Assembly: GCF_000282475.1 (NCBI RefSeq)
Contig: NZ_AKJF01000153.1
Span: 1 to 38,066 of the forward strand
Source: Pseudomonas sp. GM78
GTDB taxonomy: Bacteria > Pseudomonadota > Gammaproteobacteria > Pseudomonadales > Pseudomonadaceae
Reading direction: 5' to 3'
DNA: 38,066 nt
This document shows, one piece after another, positions 2,656 through 30,068 of this stretch. Both the position numbers and the translations under genes were made by a program. Each line of letters starts with the position of its first letter. Positions within the stretch are counted from its first letter, which is position 1. The notes beneath the pieces were generated by a model, which was given only the letters and a program-made list of their open reading frames with translations, was not told where the DNA came from and did not search any database.

Positions 2656-3420
2656 TCAGCCAACAATCCCCCGAACAATGAAGTACAGCAACGAAGGCCC
2701 CAGCAAGCATCCAAGCCCGGTATGGAAAGTCGCCGTCAACGCCCCATAAGGCACCAACCGCCGATCCGTCGCCGCCAGCCCCGCCGTCACACCGCTCACC
2801 GTGCCAGCCAAACCACCGAACACCATCGCCGAACGCGGGTTATCCAGGCCCATCCAGCGCGCCGCCATCGGCGTGCCGACCATCACCAGGATCGCCTTGA
2901 TCAACCCGGTGGCAATCGACAGCGCCATCACGTCCGAGGTCGCGCCAATCGCCGCACCGGTCACCGGCCCGACGATGTAGGTCACCGCACCCGCGCCAAT
3001 CGTGGTCATGCTTACCGCATCGCGATAGCCGAACACCCAGGCCATGCACGCGCCGACAATGAACGGCAGCACCGTGCCCAGCAGCAGCGCGATCACGCCG
3101 ATCAAGCCGGCCTTGCGCGCTTCGGTGGCCTGCACTTCGAATGCCGTGGCGACGATGGCGAAGTCCCGCAGCATGGCGCCGCCCATCAGGCCGATGCCGG
3201 AGAACAGCGTCAGGTCCGCCAGGCCTTTTTGCCCGCCGGTCATGGTGCCGCCGACCCAGGCCAGCACCAGGCCGATGACGATGGCAATCGCCGAGCCATG
3301 AATGCGCCCGAAGGTCAGGCGCTTGGAAAGGATGACCGACACCCACATGATCACGCCGACGAAGGCGAATGCAGTAACCAGACCGTTGTGTTCCAGGCCT
3401 TTCTCGATGAGATCCCACAT
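2656..3420 (-). CDS. mdcM: Malonate transporter subunit MdcM (MadM)
   Basis: The 254-residue product is a hydrophobic protein with about seven or eight membrane segments (for example residues 15-32, 42-60, 100-130 and 150-190). It matches the MadM subunit of the MadL/MadM two-component malonate carrier, described as sodium-dependent in Malonomonas rubra. Gly-rich turns such as GGTMTGGQKG and FGGLAGTVSGVTAG are typical. It is the last gene of the operon and begins one base after the mdcL stop (TGA-T-ATG), so the two subunits are translationally coupled. It carries malonate across the inner membrane for the decarboxylase encoded upstream. Many bacteria use an MdcF carrier instead, and none is present here. 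Confidence 0.9.
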   Translation of the reverse strand: MWDLIEKGLEHNGLVTAFAFVGVIMWVSVILSKRLTFGRIHGSAIAIVIGLVLAWVGGTMTGGQKGLADLTLFSGIGLMGGAMLRDFAIVATAFEVQATEARKAGLIGVIALLLGTVLPFIVGACMAWVFGYRDAVSMTTIGAGAVTYIVGPVTGAAIGATSDVMALSIATGLIKAILVMVGTPMAARWMGLDNPRSAMVFGGLAGTVSGVTAGLAATDRRLVPYGALTATFHTGLGCLLGPSLLYFIVRGIVG

Positions 3421-12118: not shown

Positions 12119-12586
12119 TCAGACGAGCCCGGCACTCACCAACATCTCCTCCAGCGCCAACAAATCCGGCACCTTGGCCACCTGGTCCGCCACCTGCACC
12201 GCCGCTTTCTCCAGCGAGCACAACGGCACATCCACATAGCTCAACTGACTGTCGAGCTTGTACGAACGCGGAATCCCCTGGACCAGTATCGCGATGAACT
12301 TCAGCCCGGGCCGACCACCGAGGGCATTGAGAATGACGATTCGCGCGCGTTCGCCGATGACGATTTTCTGCCCGCAGGCCGACTCGAAGCTGAGCAACGG
12401 TATCTGCCGGTCGCGCCACGCTACCCGTCCCAGGTACCAGGGCGGTGAATCCAGGTCGAAGGCCGCGGGTTGGTAGTCGATCAGCTCCGCCACCGCGACG
12501 TTGGGCAGGATCAGGTTGCGGTCGGCCAGGGGCAGCAGCAGGCCGGTGAGGTGGCTGTCGCGCGGCTCGTGGCGACGCTCATGCAT
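12119..12586 (-). CDS. chpC: CheW-like adaptor ChpC of the type IV pilus chemosensory system
   Basis: The 155-residue product is a CheW-domain adaptor spanning about residues 13-150 (GLLLPLADRNLILPNVAVAELI, then YLGRVAWRDRQIPLLSFE). In P. aeruginosa ChpC is an accessory CheW homologue of the Pil-Chp system that may link further receptors to ChpA. The ATG at 12586 overlaps the chpA stop by eight bases. It is the last gene of the operon here and ends in a REP pair. In P. aeruginosa chpB (a CheB methylesterase) lies between chpA and chpC. Here the two genes abut and no chpB is present. Confidence 0.88.
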   Translation of the reverse strand: MHERRHEPRDSHLTGLLLPLADRNLILPNVAVAELIDYQPAAFDLDSPPWYLGRVAWRDRQIPLLSFESACGQKIVIGERARIVILNALGGRPGLKFIAILVQGIPRSYKLDSQLSYVDVPLCSLEKAAVQVADQVAKVPDLLALEEMLVSAGLV

Positions 12587-15500
12587 GGGTCTTGCTCCAC
12601 AGGGCGATGCTTTCGAGCAATACCGATTCCTGGTACGGCTTGCCTAGGTAGTCGTTGACGCCGATGGCCATGGCCCGATCGCGGTGTTTCTGACCGGTGC
12701 GAGAGGTGATCATGATGATCGGCAGGTGCCGCAGACGCTCATCCTTGCGCACCTGGGTCGCGACTTCGAAGCCATCCATGCGCGGCATTTCGATGTCCAG
12801 CAGCATCAGGTCCGGTTTGTGCTCTTCGAGCAGCAGCATGGCATCGACACCGTCCTTGGCGGTCAGCACGTTCATGCCGTGGCGTTCGAGCAAGCGGCTG
12901 GTGACCTTGCGCACGGTGACCGAGTCGTCGACCACCATCACCAGCAAGGGCCGCTGCGGCTCGACCTCTACTTCGTGGCTCACGGGACGCTGCGGCGCCC
13001 GGGCCTGCATGGCGCGAACCGGCGCCAGCAGATCCAAAATCAGCACCACCCGGCCGTCCCCCAGAATCGTCGCCCCGGACACCCCTTGCACCGCCGCAAA
13101 CTGCGGGCCGAGGCTCTTGACCACGATCTCGCGCGTGCCCGCCATGGCATCGACCTGCACCGCAATGTGACGCTCGTTGCATTGCACCAGCAATACCGGC
13201 AGCGGCAGGCCCTGACCCAGCAGCCGTGGACGTGGGCTGGTTTTCAGCAGCTCACCCAGGTAACACAATTCATAGCGCTGCCCGGCGTATTCATAAGTCG
13301 GCGGATCAAGACGAAAATGCCCCTCGAGCTCGTTGGGCAACACGCGGACAATGCCATCGATGGTGTTCAGCGGAATGGCGTATTGGTCTTCCCCGCATTG
13401 CACCATCAGCGCCCGGTTGACCGACACGGTGAACGGCAGGCGGATGCGAAAGTGCACACCCTGCCCTGGCACGGAGTCGATGCTCATGGTGCCGCCCAGT
13501 TGCCGCACTTCTTCGTGCACCACGTCCATGCCGACACCGCGCCCGGAGATCTGGGTGATTTTCTCGGCCGTGGAAAACCCCGGTTGCAGGATGAATTGCA
13601 GCACGTCGTGGTCGCTGATGACGCTGTGCGGGTCGAGCAGGCCGCGCTTGATCGCCTTGCGCCGCACCGCCTCCAGTGGCACGCCGGCACCGTCGTCGCG
13701 AATATCGAAAATGATGTCGCCGCCTTCGCGCAACAGATCCAGGGTGATCCGCCCTTGCGCCGGCTTGCCCGCCGCCACCCGCACCGGGGCGGCTTCCAGG
13801 CCGTGGTCGACGGCATTGCGCAGCATGTGCTCCAAAGGCGCCGCCATGCGCTCGAGCACATTGCGATCCATTTCGCCTTCGGCGTTGCCGACGATGAACT
13901 CGACGTCCTTGCCCAGCTCACTGGCGACCTGGCGGACGATGCGCTTCAAGCGCGGCAACATCCGCTCGAACGGCACCATGCGCGTACGCATCAGGCCTTC
14001 CTGCAATTCGGTGTTGATGCGGCCCTGCTGTTGCAACAGGTTTTCCGCGTCCAGGGTGCGCCGGTCGAGGGTTTCCTTGAGGTCAAGCAAGTCGGAGGCG
14101 GATTCGAACAGGGCCCGCGACAGTTGTTGCAATTGCGAGTGGCGGTCCATTTCCAGCGGGTCGAACTCTTCGTAACCCAGGCGCTCGGCGTCGACTTGCT
14201 GGCGGCTGAGGATCCTGCCCTGGGTTTCGGTGTCGAGCCGGCGCAACTGGTCGCGCATGCGCTCGATGGTGGTTTCCATCTCGTTGAGCGCTACCTGCGC
14301 ATCGTTGACCTGCTGCTCGATGCGACCGCGAAAGATCGAAGTTTCAGCGGCCAGGTTGACCAGGTCGTCGAGCAATTCCGCCGAGACCTTGACCATGTCC
14401 GCCCCGGCATCGGGTTGCAGCAGCGGCGTCTCGGCTTTCGCCGCAACGGGCACGGTGAGCGGCACCAGTGAATCAGGCTGCACCGGGTGACTGAAGTTCT
14501 GGATGGCGTCGATCAGCCGGTCGGCCGGCGGCAACGGCTCACCGGCGCGCGCCGCGTCGAGCATCTGGGCCAGCCGGTCATGGCTGCGCTGCAACAGTTC
14601 GAACAACGCCGCCGTGGGTTGCAGCGCGCCGGTGGATAAACCCTCGTAGAGAAATTCCAGCTCATGGGCCAGATCGCCAATCGGCGCGATTTCCACCATG
14701 CGCGCACCGCCCTTGAGGGTGTGCAGGTCGCGCAGCAGGGTTTCCATTTCCTGACGGCTCGACGGCTCGGCCTGCCAGCGCAGCAGCGCCGCGCCGGAGC
14801 TTTCGATGATGTCGAAACCTTCTTCAAGGAAGATGTCCAGCAACTCGCCGTCATGGTGGGCCGCGTCGTTGCTGGTCGCTGCTTCGATCACCTCGGCGTT
14901 GCTCGCGTGGCCTTGCCTGAACGCGCGAATCGCTTCGATCAGCTCCCCGGGGTCGCCCAGGGCTTGCTGGTCTTGCAGCTGCTCAAACAACTGCGCCAGA
15001 CGGTCATGGCTCTGTTGCAGCAACTGCACCAGCACTTCGCTGTGGCTGTAACGGCGGTCCGCCAGGCCCTCATAGAGGCTTTCCAGTTCCTGGGCCAGGT
15101 CGCCGACCGGCTCGACCTCGGCCATCCGCGCGCCACCCTTGAGGGTGTGCAAGTCGCGCTGTAACGAGGACAGCGGCGCGGGGTTAAGCGGTTCACTGAC
15201 CCAGCGTTGCAAGGAATGGTTAGCGCTGTCGAGGATGTCCACCGCTTCCTCAAGGAAGATCGAGACGATTTCGTCCTCCGGTTCACGATCCCTTGTGGGA
15301 GCGAGCCTGCTCGCGATGGATTCATAGGCGCCGCGTTTATCCTGCGATAACGTGTCATCGTTATCGTCCATCGCGAGCAGGCTCGCTCCTACAGGGGGGA
15401 GCGTGCGCTCGAGTTCGGCGGTTGCGTCGCCCAGCTCGCGGATGCTCAAGGTGCGGCTGCCGTCGCTGCGGATCAGGCCCATGGCCGAAGGGTCCAGGCT

Positions 15501-18500
15501 CTGGTCGAGCAAGCCGTGCAAGGCCCTAACCCGCTCCGGGCGCGGGCTGACTTCCTGGCCGGCCGCCAGCTCATCGAGCATGTTGATCAGCGCTTCGTGG
15601 GCACTTTGTGCCTCATGGAAAAACGCTTCGCTGACCGCCAGGCTGCTCTCTTCCACCGCACCGTAGAGGTCGAGCAAGGCTTCGCAAAGCTCATCCACCG
15701 GGTGCAGGTCGGCCAGGTGCGCGCCTTCGCCGAGGGTGGTCAATTCATCCAGCAGTGCACTGAGTTCCTGGCGCTCGCCTGGGTGCTGCTGCCAACGCCG
15801 CAACAGGCTTTCAGCGTCCAACAGGATGTCCATGCCCTGGGCCAGGAAGTTGGTGATCAACTGCGGGTCGCGCTTGACCCTCAGGCCGCTGCTGGGCGAG
15901 TTCAAGTGGATTTGCAGGCGCTCGGCGAGCAGCGCCCTGGCACGTTCGATCAGGGCTCGGGAGCCGGGGATTTCGGCCAGCGGGTCGGTCTTGAGCTGGC
16001 GCAAGCCAAGACGGAACAAGCCTTCGGCCTCCAGCAGCACTTCGACTTCGTCGAGGTCGAGCGCGATCAGGTGGGCCTTGTACTCCCGGGCCAACTGATC
16101 CAGCGGCGTCGCCAGCTCGGCAATCGGCATCACCCCCGCCATCGACGCACTGCCCTTGAGCGTGTGCAAAGCGCGCTGCAGCTCATCACTGGCCTGCAGC
16201 GGAAGGTGTTCGGCAGCCTGGTCCAGAAAGCGGTTGAGGCTGCTCAAATGGGTTTCGGCTTCCTTGCGGAAGATTTCCAGCAACAGCGGGTCGAGGGCGG
16301 CGACGTCCTGGGTGTCCTCGTCCTCTGCCGGGGCCTCGCCCTTGGCCAGGGCGTGGGCACGCGCCGCCAACTGGTCGACATCGTTGCGCTGGCGCTGGGT
16401 ATCGGCGGCGTATTCGGCCACCAGTTCCGGCAACAGATCGAGCACATCGCCGAGCAGCTGCTGCACCTGAGCGCCAGGCTCCACGCTGTGTTCCAGTACG
16501 CGGTTGAGCAGGTTTTCCAGGGCCCAGGCCAGTTCGCCGAGCACCAGGGCGCGCACCATCCGGCCACTGCCCTTGAGGGTGTGGAAGGCGCGGCGCAGTT
16601 CACTCAGGGCCAAACGGTTGGCGGGATCCGCCGACCAGCGTGGCAAATACTCGCGAATGACCTCCAGCACTTCATCGGCTTCCTCGAGGAACACTTCACG
16701 CAATTCCTCGTCCACCGGTTCTTCGCCCGAAGGCGGCGGCAGCAGGCTATCCGGGGTGTCGAGCGCGGGCGGGTTCAGGGCAGAGACCGGGCTGGCCAGT
16801 ACATCGGCCAGGGCCTGGGCGACGGCCGGTGCATCCCGCTCCTGCTGTTGTCGCAGGGCCTGTGCTTCGCCGGGGCTCAAGACATCCGCAAGCACCGGTA
16901 CCTGTCGTTCACTGGGGAAAAACCCGAGTGCCGCCAGGCTTCGTTGCGCCACGTCAAGCAGGTGTTCACCGGGCGCTTCGGGGTCGTCGCTGAGGCGCTC
17001 AAGGTAATATTCGATGCTGGTGATGACGTCGGCCAGGCTGTCCAGCGCCTGCCAGCCGGGCTGATCCGGATCGAGCAGCAGGTGCTCGCGGATGAAATGA
17101 TTGCAGGTTTCGATCAGGCCCGCCGCCCGGCTCAACGGAATCATCGCCAGGGCACCGCGCACCTGGGTCAGCAAGGCCGGCAGTGCCTGCAGGTGCTGTC
17201 GGTCCCAGTCGGCATCGATGTAGTCGACGATCATGTCCTTGGCCTGCTGCAGGCAGATGCGCGCTTCCTTGATGACGATCTGGTGGATCTGCGTCAGGTC
17301 GGTGGTGGGCAGGCGGCTGTCTTCCTGACTTTCAGGCTCCACGGTGCCGACCATGCCGGCCAGCGTCGCTTCGACGTAAAGCAAGGCTCCGGCCACGTCC
17401 ATGAGGATCGCGTCGTCGGGTGCGCGCTGGCCCTGGGCCAGGCTGAGCACCACCGCCAGCTGATCGATGATGACCTTGCGTGGCTGGCCAAAGCCCAGCA
17501 CCGCCAGGGTGTCGGCGATTTGCCGCAGGGGCGCGAGCAGGCTGTCGAGGTCCGAGGTGTGTTGCCGGTCGCTGCGCACGAACAGGTCCAGGCGCTCCTT
17601 GACCCGTACCAGTTCTTCGCACAATGCCGCCAGTACCGAGCGCATGGCGTCACGGTCGGGACCGGCCAGCCTTGCGCGTTCTTCGTCGACCATCGCGCTG
17701 TCAGGCAATGCATCGTCCAGTGCGTAGCGATCTTTCATGGTCAGCATCTGCCCGGTGGGATGTTCGGCCTTGGCTATATAGAACAGCAAACTCTTGAGCA
17801 GCTCGGGCGGCGGCGGCTGATTGATGCCCTGCATGCCCTGTTCTAGCAGACGCTTGAGCTCCTTGTCGGCCTCCTTGAACAGGCTGCGCAAGGCCGGGCT
17901 GTTGGCGATGACGCCGGCGCGCATGCCTTCTACCAGCGCCGAGCCGACTTGCCACAGCGGGCTCAGGGGCGCTGTACCGGACAAGCCTTCCAGGCGCGTA
18001 AAGACCTTGGCCAGGTACCCCAGGTGAGTGTCGTCGTCCTGTTCACGCAACAAGCCGACCAGGGCCATCTGCAACATCTGCCGCAACTTGCGCAGCACAT
18101 TCGGCAGATCGGCCGGCTCCAACTGCGCCAGGAACATTTCGTCCAGGGGAACGAGGTCTGGCAACTGCGGACTGAACAGGCTGGTTTCCGACAACAGGCT
18201 TTCGCCCCGGGCGCTGCGCAGGTCGTTGATCAACGGCAACACCACCAGCGGCAAATCGCGGCGGGCGCCTTGCACACGATCAAGGTAGATCGGCAACTGC
18301 CCCAGCGCTTGCAGCATCAGGTGCAACGCCTCGTCGCGATGATGGACGCGATTGTGTTGCAAGGCGGTGACCAGATGCTCCATTTCTTCGGCGAGCAAGG
18401 CCGCGCCGTAGAACTCGACCATCTGCAGGCTGCCGTGAACCTGATGGATGCACGCCAGGCATTCGCTCAGGGCGTGCGTCGCCTGCGGGTCATCAAGCTG

Positions 18501-18590
18501 GGTTTCGATCGCGTGATGAGCCTGCTTCAGCGTTTCGGCAATTTCGCCTTTGACCCATTCGAGGGCCACATAGTCGTGCCGATCACCCAT
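12579..18590 (-). CDS. chpA: Hybrid histidine kinase ChpA of the type IV pilus chemosensory system
   Basis: This giant 2003-residue CheA-like kinase has four clear Hpt domains with HTLKG motifs, centred on His670, His809, His1148 and His1290. An N-terminal Hpt/FimL-like region has HQVHGSL (His49, His52), and at least one degenerate Hpt-like segment lies between. A dimerisation helix follows, then the HATPase domain (N-box NAVDHG near Asn1592, GRGVGMDVV near 1685), a CheW domain (about 1700-1860) and a C-terminal receiver with phospho-acceptor Asp1932 in LMLLDIEMP. It passes phosphate to PilG and PilH. ATG 18590 has GGAG five bases upstream. P. aeruginosa ChpA is longer (about 2470 residues). 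Oddly, residues about 1066-1100 are encoded by a complete in-frame REP pair. Confidence 0.95.
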   Translation of the reverse strand: MGDRHDYVALEWVKGEIAETLKQAHHAIETQLDDPQATHALSECLACIHQVHGSLQMVEFYGAALLAEEMEHLVTALQHNRVHHRDEALHLMLQALGQLPIYLDRVQGARRDLPLVVLPLINDLRSARGESLLSETSLFSPQLPDLVPLDEMFLAQLEPADLPNVLRKLRQMLQMALVGLLREQDDDTHLGYLAKVFTRLEGLSGTAPLSPLWQVGSALVEGMRAGVIANSPALRSLFKEADKELKRLLEQGMQGINQPPPPELLKSLLFYIAKAEHPTGQMLTMKDRYALDDALPDSAMVDEERARLAGPDRDAMRSVLAALCEELVRVKERLDLFVRSDRQHTSDLDSLLAPLRQIADTLAVLGFGQPRKVIIDQLAVVLSLAQGQRAPDDAILMDVAGALLYVEATLAGMVGTVEPESQEDSRLPTTDLTQIHQIVIKEARICLQQAKDMIVDYIDADWDRQHLQALPALLTQVRGALAMIPLSRAAGLIETCNHFIREHLLLDPDQPGWQALDSLADVITSIEYYLERLSDDPEAPGEHLLDVAQRSLAALGFFPSERQVPVLADVLSPGEAQALRQQQERDAPAVAQALADVLASPVSALNPPALDTPDSLLPPPSGEEPVDEELREVFLEEADEVLEVIREYLPRWSADPANRLALSELRRAFHTLKGSGRMVRALVLGELAWALENLLNRVLEHSVEPGAQVQQLLGDVLDLLPELVAEYAADTQRQRNDVDQLAARAHALAKGEAPAEDEDTQDVAALDPLLLEIFRKEAETHLSSLNRFLDQAAEHLPLQASDELQRALHTLKGSASMAGVMPIAELATPLDQLAREYKAHLIALDLDEVEVLLEAEGLFRLGLRQLKTDPLAEIPGSRALIERARALLAERLQIHLNSPSSGLRVKRDPQLITNFLAQGMDILLDAESLLRRWQQHPGERQELSALLDELTTLGEGAHLADLHPVDELCEALLDLYGAVEESSLAVSEAFFHEAQSAHEALINMLDELAAGQEVSPRPERVRALHGLLDQSLDPSAMGLIRSDGSRTLSIRELGDATAELERTLPPVGASLLAMDDNDDTLSQDKRGAYESIASRLAPTRDREPEDEIVSIFLEEAVDILDSANHSLQRWVSEPLNPAPLSSLQRDLHTLKGGARMAEVEPVGDLAQELESLYEGLADRRYSHSEVLVQLLQQSHDRLAQLFEQLQDQQALGDPGELIEAIRAFRQGHASNAEVIEAATSNDAAHHDGELLDIFLEEGFDIIESSGAALLRWQAEPSSRQEMETLLRDLHTLKGGARMVEIAPIGDLAHELEFLYEGLSTGALQPTAALFELLQRSHDRLAQMLDAARAGEPLPPADRLIDAIQNFSHPVQPDSLVPLTVPVAAKAETPLLQPDAGADMVKVSAELLDDLVNLAAETSIFRGRIEQQVNDAQVALNEMETTIERMRDQLRRLDTETQGRILSRQQVDAERLGYEEFDPLEMDRHSQLQQLSRALFESASDLLDLKETLDRRTLDAENLLQQQGRINTELQEGLMRTRMVPFERMLPRLKRIVRQVASELGKDVEFIVGNAEGEMDRNVLERMAAPLEHMLRNAVDHGLEAAPVRVAAGKPAQGRITLDLLREGGDIIFDIRDDGAGVPLEAVRRKAIKRGLLDPHSVISDHDVLQFILQPGFSTAEKITQISGRGVGMDVVHEEVRQLGGTMSIDSVPGQGVHFRIRLPFTVSVNRALMVQCGEDQYAIPLNTIDGIVRVLPNELEGHFRLDPPTYEYAGQRYELCYLGELLKTSPRPRLLGQGLPLPVLLVQCNERHIAVQVDAMAGTREIVVKSLGPQFAAVQGVSGATILGDGRVVLILDLLAPVRAMQARAPQRPVSHEVEVEPQRPLLVMVVDDSVTVRKVTSRLLERHGMNVLTAKDGVDAMLLLEEHKPDLMLLDIEMPRMDGFEVATQVRKDERLRHLPIIMITSRTGQKHRDRAMAIGVNDYLGKPYQESVLLESIALWSKTHA
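15294..15395. repeat. REP pair inside chpA, read in frame
   Basis: Inverted REP copies of the GCGAGCCTGCTCGC subtype lie at 15294-15320 and 15367-15395, with a 46-base centre that itself holds an eight-pair hairpin (CGATAACG/CGTTATCG). The whole unit is within the chpA coding sequence and contains no stop in that frame. It is translated as PVGASLLAMDDNDD at one arm and SIASRLAPT at the other, in the linker before the third HTLKG Hpt domain. Confidence 0.92.
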
Positions 18591-18639
18591 AACCACTCCA
18601 ATCCCCACTTCAATCAAGATAGCCGTGCCCGGGGGCGGT

Positions 18640-22214: not shown

Positions 22215-22573
22215 AGGTGCTCTACCGTCGCCTTTGCGAATCTATTTGTCCATCTGCAGGGCATCGAGGGCTCGAAACCCTTGATGCTCAAGGGCCGGCA
22301 CAACATGGCAGCCTTTTTAGCACAGTCTCCAAATCCAATCTATCGGCCGGCCATGGGAGTGGTTTTTCCTTGACCGGGAACACACTCAGCGCCACTCTGA
22401 CGCCACTTTTATACGGTCCTTTGGATTGATCTTTTGTGGGAGCGAGCCTGCTCGCGATGGTCGTCAACGATGACGCGAATCAGCAGGATGAGCGCGGTGA
22501 TCTTTAGCCCATCGCGAGCAGGCTCGCTCCTACAGGATTTACATAGGCCTCACCCACTTCTGAGGAAACACCC
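22215..22573. other. Divergent pilG/gshB intergenic region with a leader hairpin
   Basis: No gene is seen in these 359 bases. Bases 22261-22270 (GCATCGAGGG) and 22278-22287 (CCCTTGATGC) form an inverted repeat with one imperfect position around a seven-base centre. It lies 47 bases upstream of the pilG ATG, so it is probably in the pilG leader or an operator. The gshB-proximal part holds a REP pair (22435-22536). A TTTTATACG stretch near 22410 could be a -10 region for gshB, but no matching -35 is evident. Confidence 0.4.
22435..22536. repeat. REP pair upstream of gshB
   Basis: Inverted REP copies of the GCGAGCCTGCTCGC subtype lie at 22435-22460 and 22508-22536. They are in a divergent promoter region, an unusual place for REPs, and end only 37 bases before the gshB start, so they probably lie upstream of or within its leader. 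Confidence 0.88.
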
Positions 22574-29996: not shown

Positions 29997-30068
29997 CCCC
30001 TTCGCGAGCAGGCTCGCTCCCACAGGATTTACGCAGTCCCTGTGGGAGCGAGCCTGCTCGCGATGGGG
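29997..30068. repeat. REP pair between the NlpC/P60 gene and pilT
   Basis: Inverted REP copies of the GCGAGCAGGCTCGC subtype lie at 29997-30026 and 30039-30068, with only a 12-base centre. They lie in the convergent gap and end 26 bases before the pilT stop. Confidence 0.88.

Follow-up and report, generated by a model that had tools for sequence, protein, structure and literature searches.

How does a pair of inverted REPs, an element that belongs mostly between genes, come to be read in frame inside a protein, and what becomes of it there? This question is raised by the gene chpA in contig NZ_AKJF01000153.1 of Pseudomonas sp. GM78, which was analyzed over its full 38,066 nucleotides (hereafter the window). 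A first-pass annotation of this DNA had recognized a complete REP pair embedded in frame in chpA and had read it as a snapshot of REP mobility that reshapes a protein. In the accessible part of the description of the REPINs of the P. fluorescens group, these elements are inverted REP pairs of high copy number and predominantly extragenic location (Bertels and Rainey, 2011; PMC3116915).

A REPIN in the Reading Frame of chpA

The embedded pair was confirmed as a symmetric REPIN in an open frame of the minus strand (Table 1). Its two arms of 31 nt are 94% complementary and enclose a spacer of 46 nt, so that two inverted REPs flank a short center. According to the definition available in PMC3686654, a REP consists of a GTRG tetranucleotide and a palindrome; both are present in the arms, and the copy number is high, as the 26-mer of the REP arm has 534 sites in the genome (280 + 254, with up to three mismatches) against none for the reversed control. 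Two further REPs of the same family lie in the window at 22436–22461 and 30042–30067. A search of a plasmid collection gave no match.

Table 1. Features of chpA and of the REPIN within it, in window coordinates.
Feature	Position	Strand	Basis or remark
chpA-like gene	12579..18617	-	open frame, 2012 codons from TTG; Pfam
symmetric REPIN unit, 98 nt	15295..15392		chpA CDS nt 3226–3323; orientation A in coding strand
REP arm, 5′ in coding sense, GTAGGAGCGAGCCTGCTCGCGA + flank	15367..15397	-	inverted-repeat match, genome copy count
REP arm, 3′ in coding sense, inverted, GTGGGAGCGAGCCTGCTCGCGA + flank	15290..15320	+	inverted-repeat match, genome copy count
REPIN center, 46 nt	15321..15366	-	reverse complement present in orientation-B relatives
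34 REPIN-derived codons, residues 1075–1108	15294..15395	-	open frame, translation

The location is the exception. The chpA copy lies within a codon-biased open frame and is the sole REP locus that a rough codon-usage test places inside a gene among 26 distinct loci of the host genome, a non-random sample derived from the 30 best-matching of the 534 sites. The derived peptide runs from PVGASLLAM to SIASRLAPT. Its earlier numbering as residues 1066–1100 is right in position if translation starts at the Met ten codons in and is replaced by that of Table 1 if counted from TTG. The strong hairpin proposed for the middle of the mRNA is borne out by prediction, with a fold of −70.6 kcal/mol for the RNA of 15284–15403 (z = −10.0 against 200 shuffles). 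An assembly frame error is contradicted, because a one-contig genome labeled as the same species also carries an in-frame insert at this place.

The name chpA is sound, since the product shows six Hpt stretches, HATPase_c, CheW, and a response regulator receiver domain (Pfam) and the neighboring genes encode a PilJ-type MCP and two CheW proteins. Pfam and AlphaFold agree with the earlier placement of the insert in a linker of low predicted order preceding an Hpt domain. For residues 946–1213, modeled from an alignment of 30 rows, a mean pLDDT of 69.9 and a pTM of 0.39 were obtained; pLDDT is below 50 across most of residues 98–166 of this fragment, in which the insert occupies about 129–163, and the helices on either side of the insert region are better predicted.

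Distribution in the Genus Pseudomonas

GTDB contigs were scanned for relatives ranked by likeness to the insert-bearing query. Together with the window, the best 80 of 342 gave 81 linkers, of which 32 hold a full two-REP insert, 45 are empty (43 of 99 nt and two of 87 nt) and four carry remnants or scars (L094, L122, L091, and L117). The carrier share of 32 in 81 is biased upward, because the relatives were picked by likeness to a query with the insert. Carriers include P. umsongensis, P. moorei, P. migulae, P. jessenii, P. laurylsulfatiphila, P. laurylsulfativorans, and P. serbica, together with strains assigned to putida or fluorescens.

Among the matches listed for an evenly drawn sample of 149 genomes of the genus, at least six, that of the host itself among them, align over the insert with an identity of 80% or higher. 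A REP motif of the type GTRGGAGC / GCTCCYAC was absent from 58 stretches taken from this sample, and a REP-like peptide was absent from 24 further loci (L007–L030), the remainder being judged on the matches listed. The refuting condition named in the first-pass annotation, the same peptide in distant Pseudomonas without REP-like DNA, did not arise as far as examined. A sample of 398 genomes, overlapping the former, gave 23 matches at E ≤ 1e-12, namely 20 carriers, one remnant (L258), one empty linker (L260), and L259, whose linker was not parsed. Most of the genus is thus without the insert. Nine of these 20 carriers are new, which brings the distinct carriers to 41 (32 + 9).

Bounded by the same pair of protein motifs, all 81 linkers form a single stop-free frame, as do 22 of the 23 linkers in the second set (11 of them repeats from the first), and the insert lengths are therefore divisible by three. 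The phase of the insert is identical in the 41 carriers. Compared with the usual empty linker of 99 nt, the excess is 105–189 nt in 30 of the 32 carriers and 93 nt in L075. The suggested search for a target-site duplication, made by eye in the linker sequences, found a GACC/GACCGCG echo on both sides, but the flanks are too diverged for a duplication to be demonstrated.

The reading as a snapshot of REP mobility is therefore borne out in part. The REPIN, its frame, and its absence from most of the genus hold; a recent one-off jump does not, as 41 genomes have a REPIN at this linker with centers of one family. The shared linker site and center family indicate that the REPIN at chpA is old. The protein appears to be reshaped more by in-place inversion, arm conversion, short-tract recombination, tandem duplication, and deletion than by new insertion.

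Two Orientations of the Center

The centers fall into two classes, A (e.g., DVNDDALSLDKRGA) and B (e.g., DSQAPRLSNDNASS). Identity between the classes is 28.5% in direct comparison and 80.7% as reverse complements, the reverse comparison being the better one in 208 of 208 pairs. Within the classes it amounts to 81.2% (A) and 83.2% (B), and a center compared with its own reverse complement reaches 27.7%. A loose regular expression for the arms mis-cut several inserts, so orientation was counted with fixed 98-nt units; the comparison covers 16 A and 13 B units from 29 of the 32 carriers, with L076, L082, and L083 left out for indels in the arms. Since the centers match as reverse complements, the two classes represent a single element that occurs in either orientation. 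In the host genome, 12 further REPINs of 98 nt are 46–65% identical to the window center in the better orientation. Over the 41 carriers, 25 A and 16 B were tallied (L253, L255, and L257 assigned from their translation), and both orientations occur in one-contig genomes, with B in G342 and G316 and A in G303, G424, and G305.

Both orientations were found at this locus between like flanks, in comparisons between genomes. The clearest pair is L077 (A) and L090 (B), whose units are 66% identical directly and 93% when one is reversed and whose chpA flanks are 93.8% alike. The flank words of L077 are nearly identical on both sides to those of L090 and L085 (B), and the right flanks of L061 (A) and L070 (B) resemble each other. 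When one A center was compared by BLAST with 40 genomes, the chpA locus was the top match in 24 of the 32 carriers (13 A, 11 B). In 11 of the 13 genomes with a B insert, chpA was thus the best match to an A center (85–92%). A better match lies elsewhere in G171 (98% against 95% at chpA) and G175 (86% against 84%), G165 has a tie at 100%, and for five carriers the top match falls outside the matches listed; replacement of the center from elsewhere is therefore possible in these eight genomes.

A center unique to chpA can be ruled out, as a pattern with three mismatches matched 33 of 36 genomes, in some of them with many other REPINs, and near-identical centers occur elsewhere in G165 and G171. 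The argument therefore rests on likeness over the full center.

On a tree of the chpA flanks, built by a quick method with 49 of 78 inner branches starred and 15 forks open, orientation requires nine changes among 32 carriers (mean of 500 shuffles 10.4, with 25.6% at nine or fewer). Insert presence is clustered, requiring 11 changes against 25.8 in shuffles, and empty alleles are nested among carriers. Taken together, the genome comparisons point to flipping of the chpA REPIN, some instances of which could be mimicked by exchange with oppositely oriented alleles from other species.

Reading Frame and Selection

A flip in place preserves the frame, because the symmetry of the unit leaves the start of the left arm unchanged; the flipped unit therefore need only be free of stops. 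Of the 29 inserts, 24 have no stop in this frame (11/16 A, 13/13 B), and the other four unused frames are open in 15 of 116 cases (12/64 A, 3/52 B). The contrast is in part due to a TAG in one arm frame and to shared ancestry. Five of the 16 A inserts have a stop in the flipped frame, that of the window among them.

The dN/dS of the inserts is 0.45 (A) and 0.52 (B), and that of the 100-codon flanks 0.06–0.15. Strong selection on the REPIN peptide is ruled out by these ratios, which for the centers alone are 0.46 (A) and 0.87 (B). The pattern is consistent with a tolerated linker, and the peptide is probably under weak constraint and close to neutrality.

Arms and REP Types of the Host

The arms at chpA tend to match the REP type of their own host. 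In six genomes with GAGCTGGCTTGCCAGC arms at chpA, the median share of this type, as a fraction of the three REP types counted, is 0.61 against 0.05 in 27 others (p = 3e-4), and in eight genomes with GAGCGAGCTCGCTCGC arms the median is 33.5 copies against 5 in 25 others (p = 0.0036); both statistics include the chpA copy itself and ignore kinship. Among seven genomes in which one arm type forms the majority of REPs, L069 and L072 keep other arms in chpA, and an exactly typed chpA arm is missing in 8 of 33 genomes. Longer foreign pieces are present in the arms of L076, L082, L083, and L094, and the piece shared by L076 and L083 also occurs in a REP at another place (L228).

The host genome has three matches to PF01797. 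Two are RAYT-like Y1-transposase genes, each between inverted REPs of a class other than that of the chpA arms, with exact GTGGGAGCTGGCTTGCCAGCGA at L237 (G000 C117) and with two mismatches to the chpA class at L236 (G000 C142). Beside the third gene (L235), none of the four REP classes sought was present. Among these three genes, none was found to be flanked by exactly the arm type of chpA.

Growth, Loss, and Exchange at the Locus

Tandem and collapsed forms of the insert were observed as well. L087 has two copies of the part comprising center and arm, and L257, from a one-contig genome, has three. Relative to L090 and L084, L122 and L091 lack 96 and 99 nt in a way that suggests in-frame excision; this comparison, made by eye and between differing species, shows CCT or CCAC at either presumed end. 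The short linker of L117, with a carrier-like left flank and a leftover resembling a REP end (GCTCCCACC), is likely an excision scar. In L065, the left flank and REP start are partly duplicated (VGAENTLPPVGAN) beside the insert, with the frame kept.

G305, of the same species, shares with the window the left flank, the left arm, and the beginning of the center, after which the two differ. They are 85, 75, and 85% identical over three consecutive segments of 60 nt and 88–100% elsewhere, whereas L239 from another species reaches 92, 92, and 83% in the same segments and 60–97% elsewhere, as a short recombined tract would give. Furthermore, L063 and L064 have nearly identical inserts in chpA flanks only 70–95% alike (150-nt segments), and the flanks of L064 are 81–98% identical to those of the empty L097. 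Descent without transfer is thereby ruled out, and the sequences suggest short-tract transfer between species.

Copies also lie outside chpA. G165 has a second REPIN elsewhere with an identical 63-nt center stretch and different arms. In G171, contigs C57 and C79 (L229, L201) both end near the same non-chpA REPIN, and the sequence of C79 turns back through that flank in the opposite direction, as would be expected from reads holding the center in both orientations or from a hairpin artifact.

Origin of the Two Orientations

The observations are probably best explained by a REPIN of long standing within the gene, where it is tolerated and undergoes inversion, conversion, and loss as long as the frame is kept. 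A single REPIN would have arrived in frame, long ago, in the ChpA linker of a Pseudomonas subgroup including P. umsongensis, P. jessenii, and P. migulae, where the flexibility of the linker would have allowed it to be tolerated. Once there, it would remain part of the REP population of its host. The 98-nt unit may flip between its inverted arms, most likely by template switching during replication or by recombination between the arms, with RAYT action as a possibility. Through ectopic conversion, REP types frequent in the host would replace the sequence of its arms, and parts of the unit would be swapped between strains and species through short-tract recombination. It may grow by tandem duplication and be deleted between short microhomologies, while selection would act on the frame only and purge changes that break it.

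Repeated, independent jumps of REPINs into the same linker, in either orientation, would also account for a REP type that varies between species and for the 11 changes that presence requires on the tree, and the like centers at other sites in G165 and G171 mean that copying to or from chpA happens. Such an insertion hot spot is nevertheless considered unlikely: the 29 compared centers form one family (about 81% alike) that the 12 other REPINs of the host genome do not share, one phase is common to 41 carriers, flank words are alike on both sides in many of them, and presence is more clustered than in the shuffles. Mis-oriented centers or a false frame produced by assembly or annotation are hardly credible. 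Many of the genomes are drafts, in which inverted arms of about 26–31 nt can confuse short k-mers, but each orientation is represented in one-contig genomes and the frame is open in every one of the 81 linkers.

ChpA controls pilus behavior, where heterogeneity could be of benefit. The flip could accordingly be a selected switch, an intragenic inverton that yields two versions of the ChpA linker or, if a stop interrupts the flipped frame, an off state, and the largely open flipped frame and the scatter of orientation over the tree would suit such a role. It is judged very unlikely in view of the fast evolution of the peptide, the empty alleles nested among carriers, and the many extragenic copies with the same REP-center-REP build. 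A related conjecture, that the translated REPIN is a naturally invertible protein module whose arms flip the center in growing cultures, is likewise improbable. In that case, one population would make two ChpA linkers or, given a stop in the flipped frame like the one found here, both full-length ChpA and a truncated form, and a pilus chemosensory kinase would hold a phase-variation device without a recombinase of its own. The old, tolerated REPIN that changes in place thus remains the preferred reading.

Relation to Known Elements

For the REPINs of the P. fluorescens group, excision in sequencing reads and tandem clusters have also been described (PMC3116915). The chpA element resembles them in its inverted REP pair, high copy number, probable excision, and tandem forms and, as far as the accessible part of that description goes, differs in being translated, in keeping one codon position across species, and in occurring in two orientations. 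GTAG/CGTC REPs and their dimers are reported inside ORFs of several species, with differing REPs at about the same recB site in two Xanthomonas species, and linkers or loops were suggested to tolerate them (PMC3733652). The chpA insert is likewise a REP element within an ORF and in a linker; the chpA case itself, inversion, host-matched turnover of the arms, and the likely excision scar go beyond that account in its accessible part.

Rickettsia palindromic elements, which PMC3733652 also mentions, are palindromic repeats inserted in many protein genes. They share with the present case the palindromic repeat within a protein gene and are, by description, a different repeat family; chpA is the sole gene studied here. 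In intragenic invertons, a protein is recoded when the DNA between two inverted repeats of its ORF inverts. Here, the inverted repeats are REPs, and the orientations are known from comparison between genomes.

Searches of the open-access literature brought up no description of a coding REPIN undergoing inversion, which is weak evidence that a translated REPIN in two orientations at one locus is new; intragenic REPs as such are already known. In extragenic REPINs, in-place change is hard to follow, because there is no reading frame and there are few fixed landmarks. At chpA, inversion, conversion, tandem growth, and loss are recorded between conserved protein domains in about 40 genomes. The locus renders REPIN inversion directly testable and illustrates the tolerance and remodeling of a repeat within a protein.
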